64,000 bases of DNA from positions 1,442,068 through 1,506,067 of the forward strand of contig CAKZJV010000007.1 in NCBI GenBank assembly GCA_937120475.1, given 5' to 3'. The notes beneath the pieces are model-generated. The model ran no database searches. It was not told where the DNA came from and saw only the letters and a program-made list of their open reading frames with translations. Shown here piece by piece: positions 23,455-55,540 of the stretch; position 1 is the first letter of the stretch, and each line of letters opens with the position of its first letter. The position numbers were made by a program, and so were the translations under genes. The stretch is from an uncultured Cryomorphaceae bacterium (GTDB taxonomy: Bacteria; Bacteroidota; Bacteroidia; Flavobacteriales; Schleiferiaceae).

Positions 23455-25443
23455 ATGAAAAAAGTAGCTACAGCTCTAGCTTTGGCCATGGGATTCTCTA
23501 TGCTCGGCCAAAAGCTTGAAACAAATCCTAATGCGCTGAACAAAAGCGCAGTACCCGCTAAGGCCGATCCTTATCTGGATGAAGATTACCCGGGAGCACA
23601 AAAAAGTACTCCTACACCCAAAGGCAAAAGTTCCGCAGCGGTATTGTGGAGTGAAGACTTTGGTTCTGGTTTTAGCAGCCCCAACGGTAATTGGGTGGCC
23701 AGTGGAATGAACTCCAACCTGGTAATGTATGATAGTAATGGCCCGGACAGTCTTTTACAATTCAACTGGGGACCACTGCCATCACCTACCGCCAGTAATG
23801 GTTTTGCCATTTTTGACTTTTATGCCCGCATCCCGGATGTAAATGGTTTTGCCACCTCTCCTGCGGAAGGATTATTGACCTCTCCGACTATCAATTTGAA
23901 TAGTCCTGATGTTTTCCTCTCGCTCCACCAGCAGATATTTCACTGCTGTAACCTCAATTTGGAAGTTTTTATAGAGGTAAGTACCGATGGCGGGGCTACC
24001 TGGCCAGCAGCCAATCGTTTCAAAACCAATATTGTAGATAGAAATGCTCGCCACTGGGACCTGGGCCTGGGTTATTACTTTGAGTATGACCTTTCCGGTA
24101 TTCTTTCCGGCAACCCCACCAATAACGTGAAAATCCGTTTTAATTGGACTTCAACCTCACCGGATGCCAACGGGCAATATTCAAACAACTATTTCTGGAT
24201 GATCGATGATATCGAGATTAGTGACCTGCCCCGCCATAAGGTGAAGTTTACCGATTTTGGTGGTGCTCCCGCTCATGACTTTATCGTTGATGGTGATGGG
24301 GCGAACACCAAAACCGGGGTAATTTGCCTGGATGAGGCTTTACCTATTTCCTTTGATTCCAACGTTTTTAATTTCGGAACTGACGATCAAACGGGCGTGG
24401 ACCTGCAAGTGCAGATCTATGATGCCAGTGGAAACCTTGCCGGTACTGTGCAGTCCAGCAGTAATTCAACCCTGTTGAAAGGAGATACCCTGGATTTTAA
24501 CTCCCTAACCACCAGTGCATGGACTCCTACTGCAACCGGCAACTATACCTTTGTGTATAGTGTTATTTCCGATTCTATACCCGTAAGCCTTAATGCAGAA
24601 GTAGTACGCGATTCCTTTCCCCTGGTGGTGACAGACAGTGTGACTTCTATTGATTTCAGCACTTTTGGCAACTCAGTAGGAACCTCTGAATTAGGTAATG
24701 ACGGCAGTGCGCTGGCGGTTCGTTATCACTTAGCTGTTCCCAGTTTTGGAAACACTATGGTAGAAATCCCTGACCTGATTATTGACTATTCCACAGCTAC
24801 TGTAGCCGGAGGCGATATTCAGATAGAGGTTTACGATACAACGGGCTTCGATTTCCAGAATGGATTTGGAGGACCAGCCCTGGTTTCTAAAGCTTTTACC
24901 CTGGGAACACCAGAAGACAATGGAGCGGTAGTGAGCTACGACCTCTCAATCAATGGTACACCGTTAATGGTTAACCCCGGTTCTTATTACTTTGTGGTGT
25001 ATATGTTCTCCAACCAGGGCAATAACCGGGTTGCAATAGCCAATGACCAAACTTTCCCGAGTACGGGTACCAGTGCCGTTATGTTTGATATTGGCGATGC
25101 CCGCTGGTACGTTGGTTACAATGACTCCAAAACGTTCAATGCTCCCTTTATTAAGGTAAAGAAGAATCCTAATACTATTGGACTTGAAGAGGTAGTACGC
25201 ACGGATTATATGAACATTTATCCCAACCCAAGCGATGGGCACCTGGCCATAGAAATGGAGCAGGGAGGAACCTTTAAGTTGGATCTGGTAAATACGGCCG
25301 GTCAGGTAGTGGACTCTCGCCCTGCAACAGCCAACGGAGGTGAAAAAATAGATTTGAACTACACTAACGTAGCTCCCGGAACCTATTTCCTGAAAGTGGA
25401 AGGCAAAAATTATCACAGAACCGCAAGGATTGTGATCCAATAA
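23455..25443 (+). CDS. Secreted multi-domain protein with T9SS type A sorting domain
   Basis: A 662-residue exported protein. It has a signal peptide (KKVATALALAMGFSMLGQ), then a jelly-roll-like region at about residues 60-260 (LWSEDFGSGFSSPNGNWVAS; LHQQIFHCCNLNLEVFIEVS) resembling MAM/concanavalin-type modules. Two beta-sandwich segments of unknown family follow (about 265-580). The last 80 residues are a T9SS type A sorting domain (MNIYPNPSDGHLAIEME ... APGTYFLKVEG). The last domain marks it for passage through the outer membrane by T9SS and attachment or release at the surface. No catalytic motif is recognised; a structural or adhesive role is possible but not shown. Confidence 0.85.
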   Translation: MKKVATALALAMGFSMLGQKLETNPNALNKSAVPAKADPYLDEDYPGAQKSTPTPKGKSSAAVLWSEDFGSGFSSPNGNWVASGMNSNLVMYDSNGPDSLLQFNWGPLPSPTASNGFAIFDFYARIPDVNGFATSPAEGLLTSPTINLNSPDVFLSLHQQIFHCCNLNLEVFIEVSTDGGATWPAANRFKTNIVDRNARHWDLGLGYYFEYDLSGILSGNPTNNVKIRFNWTSTSPDANGQYSNNYFWMIDDIEISDLPRHKVKFTDFGGAPAHDFIVDGDGANTKTGVICLDEALPISFDSNVFNFGTDDQTGVDLQVQIYDASGNLAGTVQSSSNSTLLKGDTLDFNSLTTSAWTPTATGNYTFVYSVISDSIPVSLNAEVVRDSFPLVVTDSVTSIDFSTFGNSVGTSELGNDGSALAVRYHLAVPSFGNTMVEIPDLIIDYSTATVAGGDIQIEVYDTTGFDFQNGFGGPALVSKAFTLGTPEDNGAVVSYDLSINGTPLMVNPGSYYFVVYMFSNQGNNRVAIANDQTFPSTGTSAVMFDIGDARWYVGYNDSKTFNAPFIKVKKNPNTIGLEEVVRTDYMNIYPNPSDGHLAIEMEQGGTFKLDLVNTAGQVVDSRPATANGGEKIDLNYTNVAPGTYFLKVEGKNYHRTARIVIQ

Positions 25444-28052: not shown

Positions 28053-29375
28053 CTACCAATTACAGGAAAGACCAACCTGTAAAAGGGGAGTAGCTTTGGA
28101 AGACCTATTCCAGGCTGTAGGTGTTTGATCGAGTATAGTGTAGCGCAAACCCGGACGGGCTATGACCGACCATGAGGGATTAAGGCGATACAATAAGGCT
28201 GGTCTCAAGGCCAGGTCTAAACGAAGGCCATTATTCTGTTCAACACCCTGGTCACTCATACCGTTGTAGGTGAGCAAGCCGCTAATTACCCCGGCACTCA
28301 GGTCAAAACTCCAGCGACCGCTGTACCAACGGTAACCGGCCATAACCGGAATTTCAAGGTAACGTAGATTGGTGCGCTGCACTCCAGTTATTTGACGATA
28401 GGTAAGGGTAGTATCGTAATGGGTGCTGATTACCGTATCAATCTCGTAATGTCCTTGAAACGGTCCATCGATAATCCAATTAGAATCCACCCTTTGCACC
28501 GGCACTTCCGTAAAATCCATTTGCGGCACACTATCGTTGTATTCACCCAGGTGCGCGTTGATATGTACCCCGGTTTGCAGGAAAAAGTTCTGGTTTAGGA
28601 ATTCCACTTCCACGCCCAATCCAAATTCATAAGAGCCGGAGGTATTGTGAAAACCGTAGGTGGCCAGCATGGCTACGGAGTTGAGTTTAAAACCGGTGGC
28701 CGGATCAATTATAGAAGCTTCTTCTTCGGATTCCAGCAATTTCAGGCTTGGTTGCAGATCATTGGATAGGTTGTGCCAGTTCCTGTTCAATAGCTCAGTT
28801 TTAAGGCTTACCGTTTCCGTTTCTCTTTGGGCGGTATTATTGTTCAGGTAAGAGTCACCGGTTGGTTGCTGCCGTGCTGAGTTAAAAGAATTAGACAGGG
28901 AAGCGGTTAGCTGCCCGGAGGTTTCTTGCCCATTCTTTTCATTATTACTTACACTGTAAGTATTATCGTTATTGGCTATAACCGCTTCCTCGCTTTCGCT
29001 ATTTGCCACATCCTCAGCATCGGTTTCCTGCAAGTCAGCTTCATCTGAACCATTTATAGCCCGGTGGGCATCAAGGCCATTTTCATTTCCGGCCGGCTCC
29101 GGTGTATTCGGAATAATCGCCCGGCTTTCTTGTTGTACAGAAACGGGTGCTTCCGGCTCATCAGCCGGCACTAATGTCCACCAGGCCAGCCCTCCTAATA
29201 AAAGTAAACCAGCAATCAACACCATACCTTTAAAGAGGCCCCGCTTATACAGGGGCACCGGTAACAAAGACGGGTGCCTGGCGATGCGTCCCTTCATATC
29301 GTCCCAGTCTGATGGCTTCGGACGCATATCCCCACTTTCCAACCTGTCTTTAAGTTTTTTCCACTCTTCAGACAT
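28053..29375 (-). CDS. Membrane-anchored protein with C-terminal beta-barrel-like domain, partner of ECF sigma factor
   Basis: A 440-residue protein with an unusual layout. Residues 1-45 are charged and cytoplasm-like (EEWKKLKDRLESGDMRPKPS), residues about 47-67 form one transmembrane helix (KGMVLIAGLLLLGGLAWWTL), about 70-210 is an acidic, Asn/Ser-rich linker, and about 210-440 consists of alternating amphipathic strands (SYEFGLGVEVEFLNQNFFLQ; LRYLEIPVMAGYRW) ending in LLQVGLSCNW, as in small outer-membrane beta-barrels. The start ATG overlaps the sigma factor stop (TGATG), so the pair is coupled. By analogy with anti-sigma factors, the N-terminus may hold the sigma factor. The gene may span both membranes; this is inference. 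Confidence 0.7.
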   Translation of the reverse strand: MSEEWKKLKDRLESGDMRPKPSDWDDMKGRIARHPSLLPVPLYKRGLFKGMVLIAGLLLLGGLAWWTLVPADEPEAPVSVQQESRAIIPNTPEPAGNENGLDAHRAINGSDEADLQETDAEDVANSESEEAVIANNDNTYSVSNNEKNGQETSGQLTASLSNSFNSARQQPTGDSYLNNNTAQRETETVSLKTELLNRNWHNLSNDLQPSLKLLESEEEASIIDPATGFKLNSVAMLATYGFHNTSGSYEFGLGVEVEFLNQNFFLQTGVHINAHLGEYNDSVPQMDFTEVPVQRVDSNWIIDGPFQGHYEIDTVISTHYDTTLTYRQITGVQRTNLRYLEIPVMAGYRWYSGRWSFDLSAGVISGLLTYNGMSDQGVEQNNGLRLDLALRPALLYRLNPSWSVIARPGLRYTILDQTPTAWNRSSKATPLLQVGLSCNW

Positions 29376-29944
29376 CACACAACCTTTTTAATTTCCGTTT
29401 TTTTTTCAAGTCTCTCTCTTAACCTGGCCTTGGCCGATTGTAAATACCTTTTGGAGCTTCGCAGCGAGATATTCAAAAGGTCTGCTACCTCCTTATGACT
29501 ATAACCCTCCATTTCAAAGAGGTTGAACACCATCTTTTCATTTTCGGGAAGGCTATGCAGAAGATTGTCCACCTCATCCTGCTCCATCTTTTCAATAACT
29601 TCATTTTGGGAAACCGCATCACAATGACCCGAATAGGTGTACACGTCCACCTGAAGGTCTATAGTCTCCTTATAATCTTTGGATTTCCGATAATGGTCAA
29701 TTGCAGTACGTACCATAATTGTTGATATCCATGGGAAGAAGTCCCTCTTAAAATCATATTTGTGCAGGTTGAGAAGAACTTTTAAAAAGCCCTCGTTAAG
29801 CAGGGCCACTGCATCTTCACGGTTACGTTGAAATTTGACACAAGTAAGCATTAAACGTTCAAAGCACAGTTGATATAAATCATACTGCGCCCGCTGATCG
29901 TTCTTCAGACACTTTTTTAAAATTTTCTCTAGGTCTTTCTGCAT
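29375..29944 (-). CDS. ECF-type RNA polymerase sigma-70 factor
   Basis: A 189-residue ECF sigma factor with region 2 at about residues 20-90 (DLYQLCFERLMLTCVKFQRN; FPWISTIMVRTAIDHYRK) and region 4 at about 120-175 (LHSLPENEKMVFNLFEMEGY; SHKEVADLLNISLRSSKRYL), where the latter is the -35-binding helix-turn-helix. ATG 29944 is used; in-frame codons upstream add only seven residues. It is coupled to the membrane/beta-barrel gene by a one-base overlap (TGATG), the normal sigma/anti-sigma arrangement in Bacteroidota. It should direct RNA polymerase to a small envelope-related gene set. Confidence 0.92.
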   Translation of the reverse strand: MQKDLEKILKKCLKNDQRAQYDLYQLCFERLMLTCVKFQRNREDAVALLNEGFLKVLLNLHKYDFKRDFFPWISTIMVRTAIDHYRKSKDYKETIDLQVDVYTYSGHCDAVSQNEVIEKMEQDEVDNLLHSLPENEKMVFNLFEMEGYSHKEVADLLNISLRSSKRYLQSAKARLRERLEKKTEIKKVV

Positions 29945-30049
29945 ACAAATATGTACGAAGACCACTTACCACAGGGCAAGTGACCTCCATACATGATTTT
30001 TAAAAAAACAGATCTTCTGGGTTCTTCATTTTTATGTTTGTTTTCATTT

Positions 30050-31780
30050 TTACTGAACTACCAGCCGGACGGTTTTCGCGGCATCCTGCATGGCAGCTTT
30101 TACTATATAAACTCCAGGAGGGATATTCTCCAACCGGATGATCTGTTCACCATCTTCTTCTCCCTTCCACTCTCTTATTAATTGCCCGTTTATTTGGTAA
30201 AGCCCTATTTTATCGAGGAAATTATCGTTTTCATCCCAGCTAAGGATTACTTCATCTGAAGCCGGGTTGGGGTAAAGGGAGTACTCAGCCCTACCGTCTT
30301 CAAATTCGTCCACACTAATTCTGGCCGGGTCCATTACCTGGAAGGTGAGATGGGCCTGTTCAAAAATTACCGTATCGCAAAAGGTATGCACACAGTTGGT
30401 AACGCCATCGTTAAAGGTTATCGTAAGGCAAATTTCGTAGGTACCGGGATTGGAATAGCTGTGTACCGGGTAGGCATTAGTGGAGATACTACCGTCACCA
30501 AAATCCCATTCGTAGGAGTACTTATTACCTAATTTAGGGTTTCGCCAGAAGATGATATTGCCATTAAAAACAATGGAATTTACCGTGTCCAGGAAAAACC
30601 TGGCCTCACAGTTGGGGTCGGCATAAAAGGTTTTGCAGGTTTTGTTATCCGGCTGGCAGCCCAAGTCTATACAATAAGTGAAGTAGCCTGGCTCCACGGG
30701 TCTTTCGAATCCGGAAACACCATTCTGCCAATCGCCATCGGAAAACGTCCATAAAGGGGTGATAATCTGGGGGGCAAAACCTACCGACTCAAACTCAAAA
30801 CGGTAGAGGGACGAGTCATTATCTACCAGGGTATGCTTCAAAACCATATCGCAGGTATCGGCCGGACAGTTCAAAACAAATTTAAAAGTGGTACTGTCTG
30901 ACTCAGGTCCAAAGCTGGCTATTTCAAAATCCAAAACCTGATTTTCATTGCAGTCATATACATAAGCATATAAACTGGGGGTAGTACCTGGTATGAGCGA
31001 ATCGTGCACCCTGCCCTGGGCATCGGTGATAAATTTTTTCAAAGGAGTGGCCGATGCTCCGTAACCCCCACCTACATATACGGCATAATTGGAAAGTGGA
31101 TTTCCACCTTGATCGGTAACCTCGGCAAAAATATCCACATAGTGATTAATAGGATTAAGGGTTAGCAGGTTACAGGGGTTAGGTGAGGATAAGGGATAGC
31201 GGGTACTATCTTTAGTGCTCATACAAACCAACTGGTGCCATGATTTTGTGTTGGTAGCGTAAGGGCTTTTCAATAAACCCTGAACACAGCCCACGCCTTC
31301 AACCCAATGACCTCCGTTAGCACCTTTAAAGTGAATACGCTTACGAAGCTTGCCGCCTATCATTACATCATCTACCAGTTCTACTTCAAGGTTAACTGTG
31401 CTGGGTAGTCCGTTGCCGTGGTGATCTTCCAGGTAAACATTGCTGATTACCTGCCCGGCCGTAAGGCTGAAATCATATAACAGCTGCTCAAAATTGCTAT
31501 TGGGTGGCACAAAATATACTTTTTGTCCGGCAGGCCTTATAGCTCCCCGGTACGATTCACCACATACCTTCAACTTTTTGTAACGCTTACCGTAAATGGT
31601 AGTGTCTTCTTTGGTAAGGCATAAATTTTCAGCCTGGGCCAGTACGTATTGGTTGGTGGAATTCTGCTCAAAAATATTGTGGACGGTATTGATCCAGGTA
31701 GCATCAGACTCCGGAAAGGAAACCTGTGCCGAGAGCCATAAGCTCATTGCAAGTAAAAAGAGTGTGTAGAATATTTTCAT
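30050..31780 (-). CDS. Secreted PKD-domain protein with T9SS sorting domain
   Basis: A 576-residue exported protein. A signal peptide (KIFYTLFLLAMSLWLSAQ) is followed by a beta-rich, Cys-containing region (about 20-400), a PKD domain at about residues 405-475 (YSYEWDFGDGSISTNAYPVH; YSNPGTYEICLTI), and a C-terminal T9SS type A sorting domain (YSLYPNPASDEVILSWDEND ... PPGVYIVKAAM). PKD domains are extracellular beta-sandwich modules in surface proteins. The true function is unknown. The gene stands alone, upstream of the sigma factor gene on the same strand with 105 bases between. Confidence 0.85.
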   Translation of the reverse strand: MKIFYTLFLLAMSLWLSAQVSFPESDATWINTVHNIFEQNSTNQYVLAQAENLCLTKEDTTIYGKRYKKLKVCGESYRGAIRPAGQKVYFVPPNSNFEQLLYDFSLTAGQVISNVYLEDHHGNGLPSTVNLEVELVDDVMIGGKLRKRIHFKGANGGHWVEGVGCVQGLLKSPYATNTKSWHQLVCMSTKDSTRYPLSSPNPCNLLTLNPINHYVDIFAEVTDQGGNPLSNYAVYVGGGYGASATPLKKFITDAQGRVHDSLIPGTTPSLYAYVYDCNENQVLDFEIASFGPESDSTTFKFVLNCPADTCDMVLKHTLVDNDSSLYRFEFESVGFAPQIITPLWTFSDGDWQNGVSGFERPVEPGYFTYCIDLGCQPDNKTCKTFYADPNCEARFFLDTVNSIVFNGNIIFWRNPKLGNKYSYEWDFGDGSISTNAYPVHSYSNPGTYEICLTITFNDGVTNCVHTFCDTVIFEQAHLTFQVMDPARISVDEFEDGRAEYSLYPNPASDEVILSWDENDNFLDKIGLYQINGQLIREWKGEEDGEQIIRLENIPPGVYIVKAAMQDAAKTVRLVVQ

Positions 31781-31849
31781 ATATACCTGAGGTTTACCCC
31801 TTTCATCTTCTATTACGGGAATGTTGAGAACAAAGGGCCAATATTTCAG

Positions 31850-54220: not shown

Positions 54221-55540
54221 ATGAAGAGAATGAAGTTTTTAATGATGTGGTGCCTGATGGGGGCCGGTGTGTGGTCATCCACGCTTTGGGCGCAAAGCAG
54301 CCAGGAATTCGAGGTTCAGTTTCAAAAATTACCGCATGAGGCCGAAGGACATTTAAGTGCTGTTTTTGAAATTGAGGAGTTTCAACAAACGCCTTTCGTC
54401 AGTTTATCGGCCTACGTTATGCAAGCAGGACTCGAGCTTGAGTTAAAGTTCCGCCTGAAATCCGGAAACAATTGGAGTGAATGGCAAAGCCTGGAGCTTA
54501 ACCACGAGGGCGAAACTCCCGATCGCACTACTTTTTTTGCCCCTTACATTGAAGAAAACTTTGAAGCGATTCAATTTGCTTCGGAAAGCTTTACGGCTGA
54601 AGAAGTGGTGTTCCGCCTGTACTTTCCCCTGGAAAGCAGTGCAGCAGAACCTAAAATGAAGGCGGCCAACGACACGCTTTGCAGTTGCCGGAAACCGGCT
54701 TACTGCGGTCGTGATTGCTGGTGTCCCAGCGGCAATTGTCCCAAAAACCCGACACCCTCTTACACCACCCCCACCCATATAATCATTCACCATTCAGCCG
54801 GAAGTAGCGTTAGTAATAACTGGCCAGCCGTGGTCAAAGCTATATGGGATTTTCACGTGAATACCAATGGCTGGAGTGATGTAGGTTACAACTGGCTGAT
54901 CGATCCCAATGGCGTGATTTACGAAGGCCGTGGTGATAGTGTGCTTGGGGCACATTTCAGTTGTATGAACAGCGGCACCCTCGGTATTTGCATGTTGGGA
55001 AACTTTGAAAATGCCCAGCCCAGCTTTAGTATGATCAGCAGCCTTTCCTACCTCATTGCCTGGGAGGCCTGCCTTGAAAACATTCCTCCATTGGGAGGCA
55101 GCTTGCATGCTTCTTCCCAATTGGTACTTCCGTACATATCCAGCCACCGGGACGGCAATACCTCAACGGCCCCCAACGGCTGCCCGAAAGGAACGCTTTG
55201 CCCGGGAGCCAACCTGTACGTACTGCTTCCCGGCATTCGCCAGGCCGTGGCCAATAACCCGTGTACCGGGAGCCTGAGTACGGAGGAGGTCATATCAGCT
55301 GGTTTCAAGTTGTATCCGAATCCCGTGCAGAGCCTATTATCAATTGAATATACCTCCGCTAAAAGTAACATGAAGGCCTGGGAAATACGGCACATTAACG
55401 GACAAATTGTTAAAAGATCACGAGGAACCAATCTTACCAGCCAGGAAATTAACGTGAGCGACCTGAGCGAAGGAATTTATCTGTTTCATTTGGAGCTTGA
55501 AGACGGAGCGTTCCATCAACAGCTTTTTGTAAAAAATTAA
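54221..55540 (+). CDS. Secreted N-acetylmuramoyl-L-alanine amidase/PGRP with T9SS sorting domain
   Basis: A 439-residue exported protein: signal peptide (about 1-23), a beta-rich region to residue 145, a Cys-rich stretch with six Cys near 153-172, and an amidase_2/PGRP domain at about 180-345. The zinc ligands are present: His in THIIIHHSAGSS, His in ISSHRDGNTS and Cys in LCPGANLY. A Tyr in DVGYNWLID completes the site. The C-terminal 85 residues are a T9SS type A sorting domain (FKLYPNPVQSLLSIEYT ... SEGIYLFHLEL). It should cut peptidoglycan stem peptides outside the cell. Convergent with recX, overlapping by 4 bases. Confidence 0.9.
   Translation: MKRMKFLMMWCLMGAGVWSSTLWAQSSQEFEVQFQKLPHEAEGHLSAVFEIEEFQQTPFVSLSAYVMQAGLELELKFRLKSGNNWSEWQSLELNHEGETPDRTTFFAPYIEENFEAIQFASESFTAEEVVFRLYFPLESSAAEPKMKAANDTLCSCRKPAYCGRDCWCPSGNCPKNPTPSYTTPTHIIIHHSAGSSVSNNWPAVVKAIWDFHVNTNGWSDVGYNWLIDPNGVIYEGRGDSVLGAHFSCMNSGTLGICMLGNFENAQPSFSMISSLSYLIAWEACLENIPPLGGSLHASSQLVLPYISSHRDGNTSTAPNGCPKGTLCPGANLYVLLPGIRQAVANNPCTGSLSTEEVISAGFKLYPNPVQSLLSIEYTSAKSNMKAWEIRHINGQIVKRSRGTNLTSQEINVSDLSEGIYLFHLELEDGAFHQQLFVKN

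Follow-up and report, generated by a model that had tools for sequence, protein, structure and literature searches.

A putative Dma-type anti-sigma factor with a predicted outer-membrane barrel, encoded together with type IX cargo in a conserved operon

Introduction

How an event at the outer surface of the cell reaches a sigma factor in the cytoplasm is a basic question in envelope biology, and the shortest route between the two is a device made of one polypeptide. In FecR/FecI cell-surface signalling, an outer-membrane event reaches an ECF sigma factor, and the receptor and the anti-sigma factor are separate proteins. The locus described here, from an uncultured Cryomorphaceae bacterium, raises the question of whether one protein could span the whole route. 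It lies in a stretch of 64,000 nucleotides, referred to as the window. An original prediction, made from the letters of the DNA, had proposed that the partner gene overlapping an ECF sigma gene encodes a protein that joins a single inner-membrane helix to a barrel-like domain and, if both ends are inserted, connects the outer membrane to the sigma factor.

A family of this layout has been published; it and the other systems cited below are described from portions of the respective papers. Proteins of the Dma family of Bacteroides thetaiotaomicron consist of an anti-sigma domain, a helix, a disordered tether and a barrel, and deletion of Dma1 or Dma2 acts through the adjoining sigma gene, as expected genetically of anti-sigma factors (PMC13088901). 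Since the Dma1/Dma2 family has the same layout, the one-polypeptide device is not a new idea. What the locus adds is the conserved link of the Dma-type layout to type IX cargo.

Results

Gene layout and identity of the sigma factor and its partner

Three genes follow one another on the minus strand of the window, encoding a 576-residue protein, the ECF sigma factor and its partner (Table 1). The sigma gene starts with the ATG at 29944 and ends with the TGA at 29377-29375; the partner gene starts with the ATG at 29375, sharing one base with that TGA, and its stop codon ends at 28053. The originally proposed one-base TGATG overlap and the coordinates of both genes are correct by ORF coordinates and sequence. 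The sigma factor matched Sigma70_ECF at 56.6 bits (cut-off 21.1) and Sigma70_r4_2 at 50.7 bits (cut-off 25.7) in Pfam, and TIGR02937 at 78.3 bits (cut-off 42.9) in NCBIfam. The partner matched PF13568 (OMP_b-brl_2) at 30.3 bits, above the gathering cut-off of 27. The NCBIfam search gave no model for it, and a search by sequence for a solved relative returned three matches at E 0.3 to 2.3, none of them accepted as a relative. Nor did a FecR domain match it in Pfam at E up to 10, and a FecR system was dropped as an explanation for the partner. The locus would resemble FecR/FecI signalling in its route from the outer membrane to an ECF sigma factor and differ from it in the lack of a FecR domain match.

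Table 1. Position of the operon's features in the window
Feature	Position	Strand	Basis
ECF-like promoter (candidate) TGGCCC-N17-CGTAATA, 60 bases before cargo gene	31811..31840	-	pattern in related loci
576-aa predicted surface protein (cargo): PKD domain, C-terminal type IX sorting domain (type A)	30050..31780	-	domain models; signal peptide-like start by eye
RNA hairpin between cargo and sigma genes (possibly attenuator- or processing-like)	29947..29999	-	MFE, shuffle z
ECF sigma factor, 189 aa	29375..29944	-	Sigma70_ECF + Sigma70_r4_2 + TIGR02937 matches
Dma-type anti-sigma/outer-membrane barrel protein (putative), 440 aa	28053..29375	-	layout, PF13568, predicted fold, conservation
Presumed cytoplasmic sigma-binding segment, residues 1-44	29244..29375	-	predicted helices 2-13, 21-32; conserved W24
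Inner-membrane helix (predicted), residues 45-68	29172..29243	-	hydropathy + AlphaFold2
Disordered acidic tether, presumed periplasmic, residues 69-228	28692..29171	-	AlphaFold2 pLDDT, composition
Eight-stranded outer-membrane barrel (predicted), residues 229-440	28056..28691	-	Pfam, AlphaFold2, PDB fold matches
Very long hairpin of strands 3/4, residues 264-352	28320..28586	-	AlphaFold2, alignment; outward side presumed from barrel topology

Predicted fold of the partner

The structure of the partner was predicted with AlphaFold2 from an alignment with 25 relatives, taken mostly but not entirely by profile rank from the 75 partners of the wider-phylum set described below. The model has helices at residues 2-13, 21-32 and 45-68, disorder at 74-226 and eight strands within 230-439; its mean pLDDT is 65.5 and its pTM 0.48, so that it does not fix the relative placement of the parts. 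Each of the three parts originally proposed was borne out. The single helix, placed at about residues 47-67, corresponds to the hydropathy maximum at residues 46-64, which is the sole hydrophobic helix, and to the third predicted helix. The acidic linker, put at about 140 residues, spans the 160 residues between 68 and 229, with 30 D/E against 8 K/R, and has pLDDT below 50 over residues 74-226. The beta-barrel-like domain of about 230 residues is predicted as an eight-stranded barrel, with pLDDT of 78 to 98 in 15 of the 21 ten-residue blocks from residue 231 on.

Fold searches (Foldseek, VIA-align) agree with this assignment, as the best PDB matches of the partner are outer-membrane barrels. 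VIA-align superimposed its barrel on NspA (Z 17.6, rmsd 2.7, 152 residues aligned), OprF (Z 17.6, rmsd 1.9, 130 aligned), OmpA (Z 17.1, rmsd 2.5, 132 aligned) and OmpW (Z 16.2, rmsd 3.0, 162 aligned). Strands 3 and 4 are predicted to be 41 and 46 residues long and to meet in a turn at 304-307, forming a hairpin that far exceeds what the barrel wall needs; the pLDDT of its outer part, residues 281-330, is 62 to 84. Around the turn, W300, I302 and G308 vary little or not at all across 15 aligned rows. Both barrel ends lie in the periplasm in OmpA-like proteins, and by the same topology the long hairpin of the partner would point outward.

The N-terminus, the tether and the barrel are encoded in one frame in all 14 aligned relatives of the partner, and a frameshift or fusion artefact was dropped as an explanation on this ground.

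Conservation of a three-gene unit

A match to the partner at E 1e-5 or better was found in 21 of 88 genomes of the window's family, own genome included. We compared 21 related loci from 19 genomes, namely 19 places in 18 genomes (L032-L050), the locus in the window and, on contig C5, its paralogue L106; genomes G019 and G026, which have matches among the 21, are outside the compared set. A gene with a type IX tail, recognized with a profile made from seven proteins passing TIGR04183, lies directly upstream of the sigma gene on the same strand at every one of the 21 loci, and a PKD-like four-letter motif is found in this cargo gene at 19 of them. By a gap rule the partner is directly downstream of the sigma gene at 19 loci, and its helix exceeds the hydropathy threshold in 17 of these 19 (L032 and L039 fall short); at the other two loci, L047 and L050, the partner is also present according to the locus reading and a family search match. 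Cargo, sigma and partner genes form a conserved three-gene unit. At L032-L036 the unit is flanked, as in the window, by thiolase-like or acyl-CoA dehydrogenase-like genes, named by eye.

The cargo gene is one of three features that go beyond the original prediction, the others being a promoter and an RNA hairpin. The cargo protein carries a type IX sorting domain, as TIGR04183 matched at 37.0 bits (cut-off 23), and it matched PF18962 at 39.7 bits and PKD_4 at 52.8 bits in Pfam (cut-off 27 for both). Its own structure prediction reached a mean pLDDT of just 43.8 and was left out. Type IX tails are common in the own genome, with at least 149 matches (150 of 169 candidates scored). Two more of them lie in the window, at 23455..25443 (+) (C7:1467283) and at about 55310..55534 (+) (C7:1497377).

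A candidate promoter and an RNA hairpin

The promoter pattern was first spotted by eye in 17 cargo upstream regions, one of them short, from loci that were later counted. TGKC-N18-20-CGTA precedes the cargo gene at 17 of 20 related loci, against 0.28 expected from dinucleotide shuffles, and in 15 of the 17 its position relative to the assumed start is between -57 and -79. At L106 it reads TGTCAT-N17-CGTATTA, 61 bases before the cargo gene. The three misses are L037, which has a site ahead of an earlier copy of the gene, L041, which has a TGAC variant, and L049, where the locus starts 98 bases before the gene. This loose pattern occurs seven times on both strands of the 64-kb window, the promoter itself included. 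The pattern provides good evidence for the cargo-sigma-partner operon.

A strict form, TGKCMC-N17-CGTADTA, occurs 13 times in eight whole genomes, with none in G003, and the reversed-pattern control occurs 7 times. Eight of the 13 sites are at the cargo-sigma-partner unit; these include one in G013, before an earlier cargo copy, and one in G016 that is counted twice because the G016 contig seems to repeat its end. Four of the five sites elsewhere lie 62 to 193 bases before genes that pass Por_Secre_tail, three of them in the own genome (products of 424, 428 and 1183 residues, the first two adjacent and alike) and one before the gene of a PKD protein in G030; the fifth (C7:793271, own genome) has no same-strand ORF behind it. 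With 7 control sites against 13 real ones, the off-unit sites are not in numerical excess, and their positions alone favour them. The pair of adjacent, similar type IX proteins is encoded on C9 of the own genome (L206:804-3636, minus strand), with the strict pattern about 108 bases before each start. A shorter pattern has six exact sites in the own genome, two of which are out of promoter position, one within a kinase-like ORF and one facing the end of a cargo gene. When one mismatch was allowed, 18 sites were found in the own genome against 15 in the control, which does not support a large regulon. These patterns are suggestive of a small regulon of type IX cargo genes under the same promoter.

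The stretch 29945..30049, between the cargo and sigma genes of the window, folds with an MFE of -30.4 (z -3.94 against shuffles). Similarly, the median z of this intergenic region over 19 loci is -4.6, and 15 of the 19 fold below all 100 shuffles. The conserved hairpin may keep the output of sigma factor and partner below that of the cargo protein.

Other pairs in the own genome

The original prediction called for a search for the same architecture beside ECF sigma genes, and it was found in the relatives and at four further places of the own genome. Eighteen sigma70-ECF matches are over the cut-off in that genome, and neighbour reading covered 15 of them (L076, L087 and L089 lie outside). A fused partner comes directly after the sigma gene in five cases, namely the window, L098, L100, L101 and L106. 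OMP_b-brl_2 is over the cut-off at L098 (55.2 bits) and L106 (34.5 bits), as in the window, and below it at L100 (26.3 bits) and L101 (19.1 bits). The layout recurs at the four further loci, with the reservation that the helix of L100 is below the hydropathy threshold. Among the five fused pairs, only the window and L106 have a cargo gene directly in front.

Two other sigma neighbourhoods of this genome have different arrangements. L099 (C7:2207500-2212500) has a split form, in which the sigma gene is accompanied by genes for a 242-residue single-helix protein, a 164-residue protein and a 442-residue barrel protein; the last matched OMP_b-brl_2 at 27.0 bits and has a secreted-protein-like start by eye. 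L081:1995-3458 (+) encodes a sigma partner of 488 residues that has a helix at 46-64 and matches nothing in Pfam at E 0.01.

Sigma/partner pairs in the wider phylum

A scan of the contigs of genomes with the partner protein alone gave 39 stretches that fitted the pattern, none of which was confirmed. For a wide scan, the 15 aligned rows of the partner varied too much, and an alignment of the sigma factor served as the query. This search gave 586 confirmed loci, of which the best 80 form the wider-phylum set; their titles are from Bacteroidota except for one Chlorobiota, one Balneolales and three named just 'bacterium'. L109 is from Phaeocystidibacter luteus (Flavobacteriales). We read 75 partners from the 80 loci, as L110, L117, L129 and L184 have no downstream ORF and L132 has no sigma stop; the reading of L118 includes a manual correction.

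In this best 80 of 586, the partner gene overlaps the sigma gene in 56 of the 75 cases, and a hydrophobic helix begins within the first 120 residues in 68 of the 75 partners. With the window included (76 partners), the W24 column is W in 70; at E 0.01, sub-cut-off matches counted, OMP_b-brl_2 is found in 45 and CHU_C, a type IX signal domain, in 9. The partners of L147, L173 and L176 (Bacteroidales/Marinilabiliales) are weak matches to the profile of the window's family. Type IX genes also stand upstream in this set, where Por_Secre_tail was found by Pfam in 20 of 42 upstream proteins, window included. At 79 loci the sigma gene could be read. Here a type IX tail occurs in 18 of the 29 upstream ORFs that lie on the same strand and have at least 200 residues, compared with 12 of 300 other ORFs; 24 ORFs overlapping the sigma gene (2 tailed) and 68 partner ORFs (1 tailed) were left aside. 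The Fisher p of 1e-14 for this comparison overstates independence, because the loci are related by descent.

Some partners of the wider set vary the layout. In L137, L140 and L169, the helix seems to be preceded by two or three tandem copies of a 30-residue N-terminal motif, of which the later ones have weak scores; the motif could be a discrete sigma-binding unit. Directly behind ECF sigma genes, L131:5524-6468, L140:5534-6604, L161:5543-6649 and L179:5525-6394 (all +) encode products in which the N-terminal segment is similar, with profile E values of 1e-7 to 0.005. These products also have a helix, which is weak in the case of L179, and in place of the barrel they have a C-terminal CHU_C type IX sorting domain. 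The sigma partner encoded by L154:5523-7202 (+) combines a helix at 46-64 with a PKD domain and a sorting tail of type A, but the N-terminal profile gives no real match to it (E 7.7). These loci suggest that some anti-sigma factors themselves bear export signals. In the collection of papers searched by text, none pairs 'gliding motility-associated C-terminal' with 'anti-sigma'.

Discussion

We are fairly confident that the partner is a dual membrane-spanning anti-sigma factor, assigned to the Dma type by its architecture, and that the sigma factor reads the cargo promoter and its own operon. Residues 1-44 of the partner would keep the ECF sigma factor bound at the inner membrane, which the single helix would cross; the disordered tether would then cross the periplasm, and the C-terminal eight-stranded barrel would sit in the outer membrane. 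A ligand, failed assembly or damage at the barrel could end the hold, probably by cleavage of the tether or by pull on it, and free the sigma factor. The freed sigma factor would read the promoter of the type IX PKD protein, with transcription continuing beyond the hairpin into the genes of the sigma factor and of the anti-sigma factor. Since the sigma factor would read the cargo-sigma-partner operon, the output would be a cell-surface protein plus the switch itself, and the pair would control the display of type IX cargo along with its own operon. The originally proposed device of one polypeptide is supported by structure prediction, by conservation and by the published family of the same layout with its genetic anti-sigma evidence.

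Like the window partner, Dma1 and Dma2 have an adjacent ECF sigma gene and an N-terminal sigma-binding segment (presumed in the window), and Dma proteins can be likened to it by layout, with one helix, a long disordered tether and a C-terminal barrel. They differ in being tied to vesicle formation and glycan-use genes (PMC13088901), whereas in the window operon a type IX cargo gene comes first, behind a conserved promoter. In Phocaeicola vulgatus, M0N98_03761/03760 behaves as a sigma/anti-sigma pair and has a link to envelope stress; its anti-sigma factor, likewise encoded downstream of the sigma gene, is predicted to have an outer-membrane barrel and to span the periplasm. There, activation of the pair lengthens the O-antigen and protects from toxins, and, unlike in the window, no type IX cargo gene is mentioned in the portion of the paper drawn on here (PMC9308784). 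A type IX C-terminal-domain protein feeds an ECF sigma factor in the PorA-PorXY-SigP system of Porphyromonas gingivalis, by way of a two-component system and without a barrel anti-sigma factor in what that source describes (PMC7712824). The SM6 promoters of Flavobacterium psychrophilum are also ECF-type with CGT in the -10 box, and their targets include type IX genes and one sigma/anti-sigma pair, but the portion cited names secretion machinery among the targets and not a cargo gene at the head of the sigma operon (PMC9723704). In a literature search that covered few subscription papers, we found no report of an operon of type IX cargo, sigma factor and barrel anti-sigma factor; the one paper found that mentions both dual membrane-spanning anti-sigma factors and type IX secretion names the former in its reference list alone.

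Besides the sensing of some other ligand, the signal that would release the sigma factor can be read in two ways, both compatible with the Dma-type reading. The first, which we hold tentatively as a real possibility, is that assembly of the barrel is sensed, with the tethered barrel as a gauge of the outer-membrane assembly machinery: when insertion fails, periplasmic proteases would cut the tether and free the sigma factor. A ligand would then be unnecessary, and the adjoining cargo gene would be one target among others. In line with this, an envelope-active toxin elicited a response of the P. vulgatus pair, and the wider response to that toxin overlapped that to a BamA inhibitor (PMC9308784). 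Moreover, the window protein finds only one of the four other fused proteins of its genome, and that one weakly, so the barrels vary while the layout stays. However, the very long hairpin with its conserved turn residues exceeds the needs of an assembly reporter, and the upstream cargo gene is kept at all 21 related loci.

These two observations speak for the second reading, in which the long hairpin binds the exported PKD protein at the surface. Sigma activity would then depend on whether the cargo has arrived or is absent, in a feedback loop on type IX export. The enrichment of sorting-signal genes at the upstream positions of the 79 loci points the same way, and the PorA protein of P. gingivalis gives a precedent for a type IX C-terminal-domain protein acting upstream of an ECF sigma factor (PMC7712824). 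We nevertheless consider this reading doubtful, since three other fused pairs of the own genome lack such a gene directly in front, and co-expression explains the common operon equally well. A tip motif was considered as evidence of binding and rejected: in the wider set it is present in just 3 of the 15 partners with an upstream sorting-signal gene and in 0 of 60 without (p 0.007), and because the positives, L108, L109 and L113, belong to the window's own family, the correlation reflects ancestry and not binding.

It is improbable that the helix is instead an internal signal peptide cut in all cells, leaving a porin-like barrel and a separate short anti-sigma factor. A V-x-A triplet does follow the helix at residues 69-71, and L099 has both functions in separate genes, but the triplet is not a conserved column, and the three parts share one frame in every aligned relative. 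It is most improbable that the partner acts positively on the sigma factor or serves as a scaffold instead of inhibiting it, for although its function here is read from position and architecture, Dma1 and Dma2 inhibit genetically (PMC13088901).

A broader and rather unlikely idea is that membrane-tethered anti-sigma factors of Bacteroidota gauge type IX export. The barrel form would read the co-encoded PKD protein, and in the other form (L131, L140, L161, L179 and perhaps L154) a sorting domain would replace the barrel. If this were true, the anti-sigma factors with a sorting domain would themselves be offered to the export machinery with their inner-membrane anchor still in place.

The locus takes the Dma layout beyond the gut bacteria in which it has been studied and ties it to type IX export by a conserved operon and promoter. 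It offers a testable output, in the candidate promoter and the PKD cargo gene, and a testable sensor site, in the tip of the hairpin. The conserved operon with an exported surface protein suggests that the switch controls what the cell displays outside.
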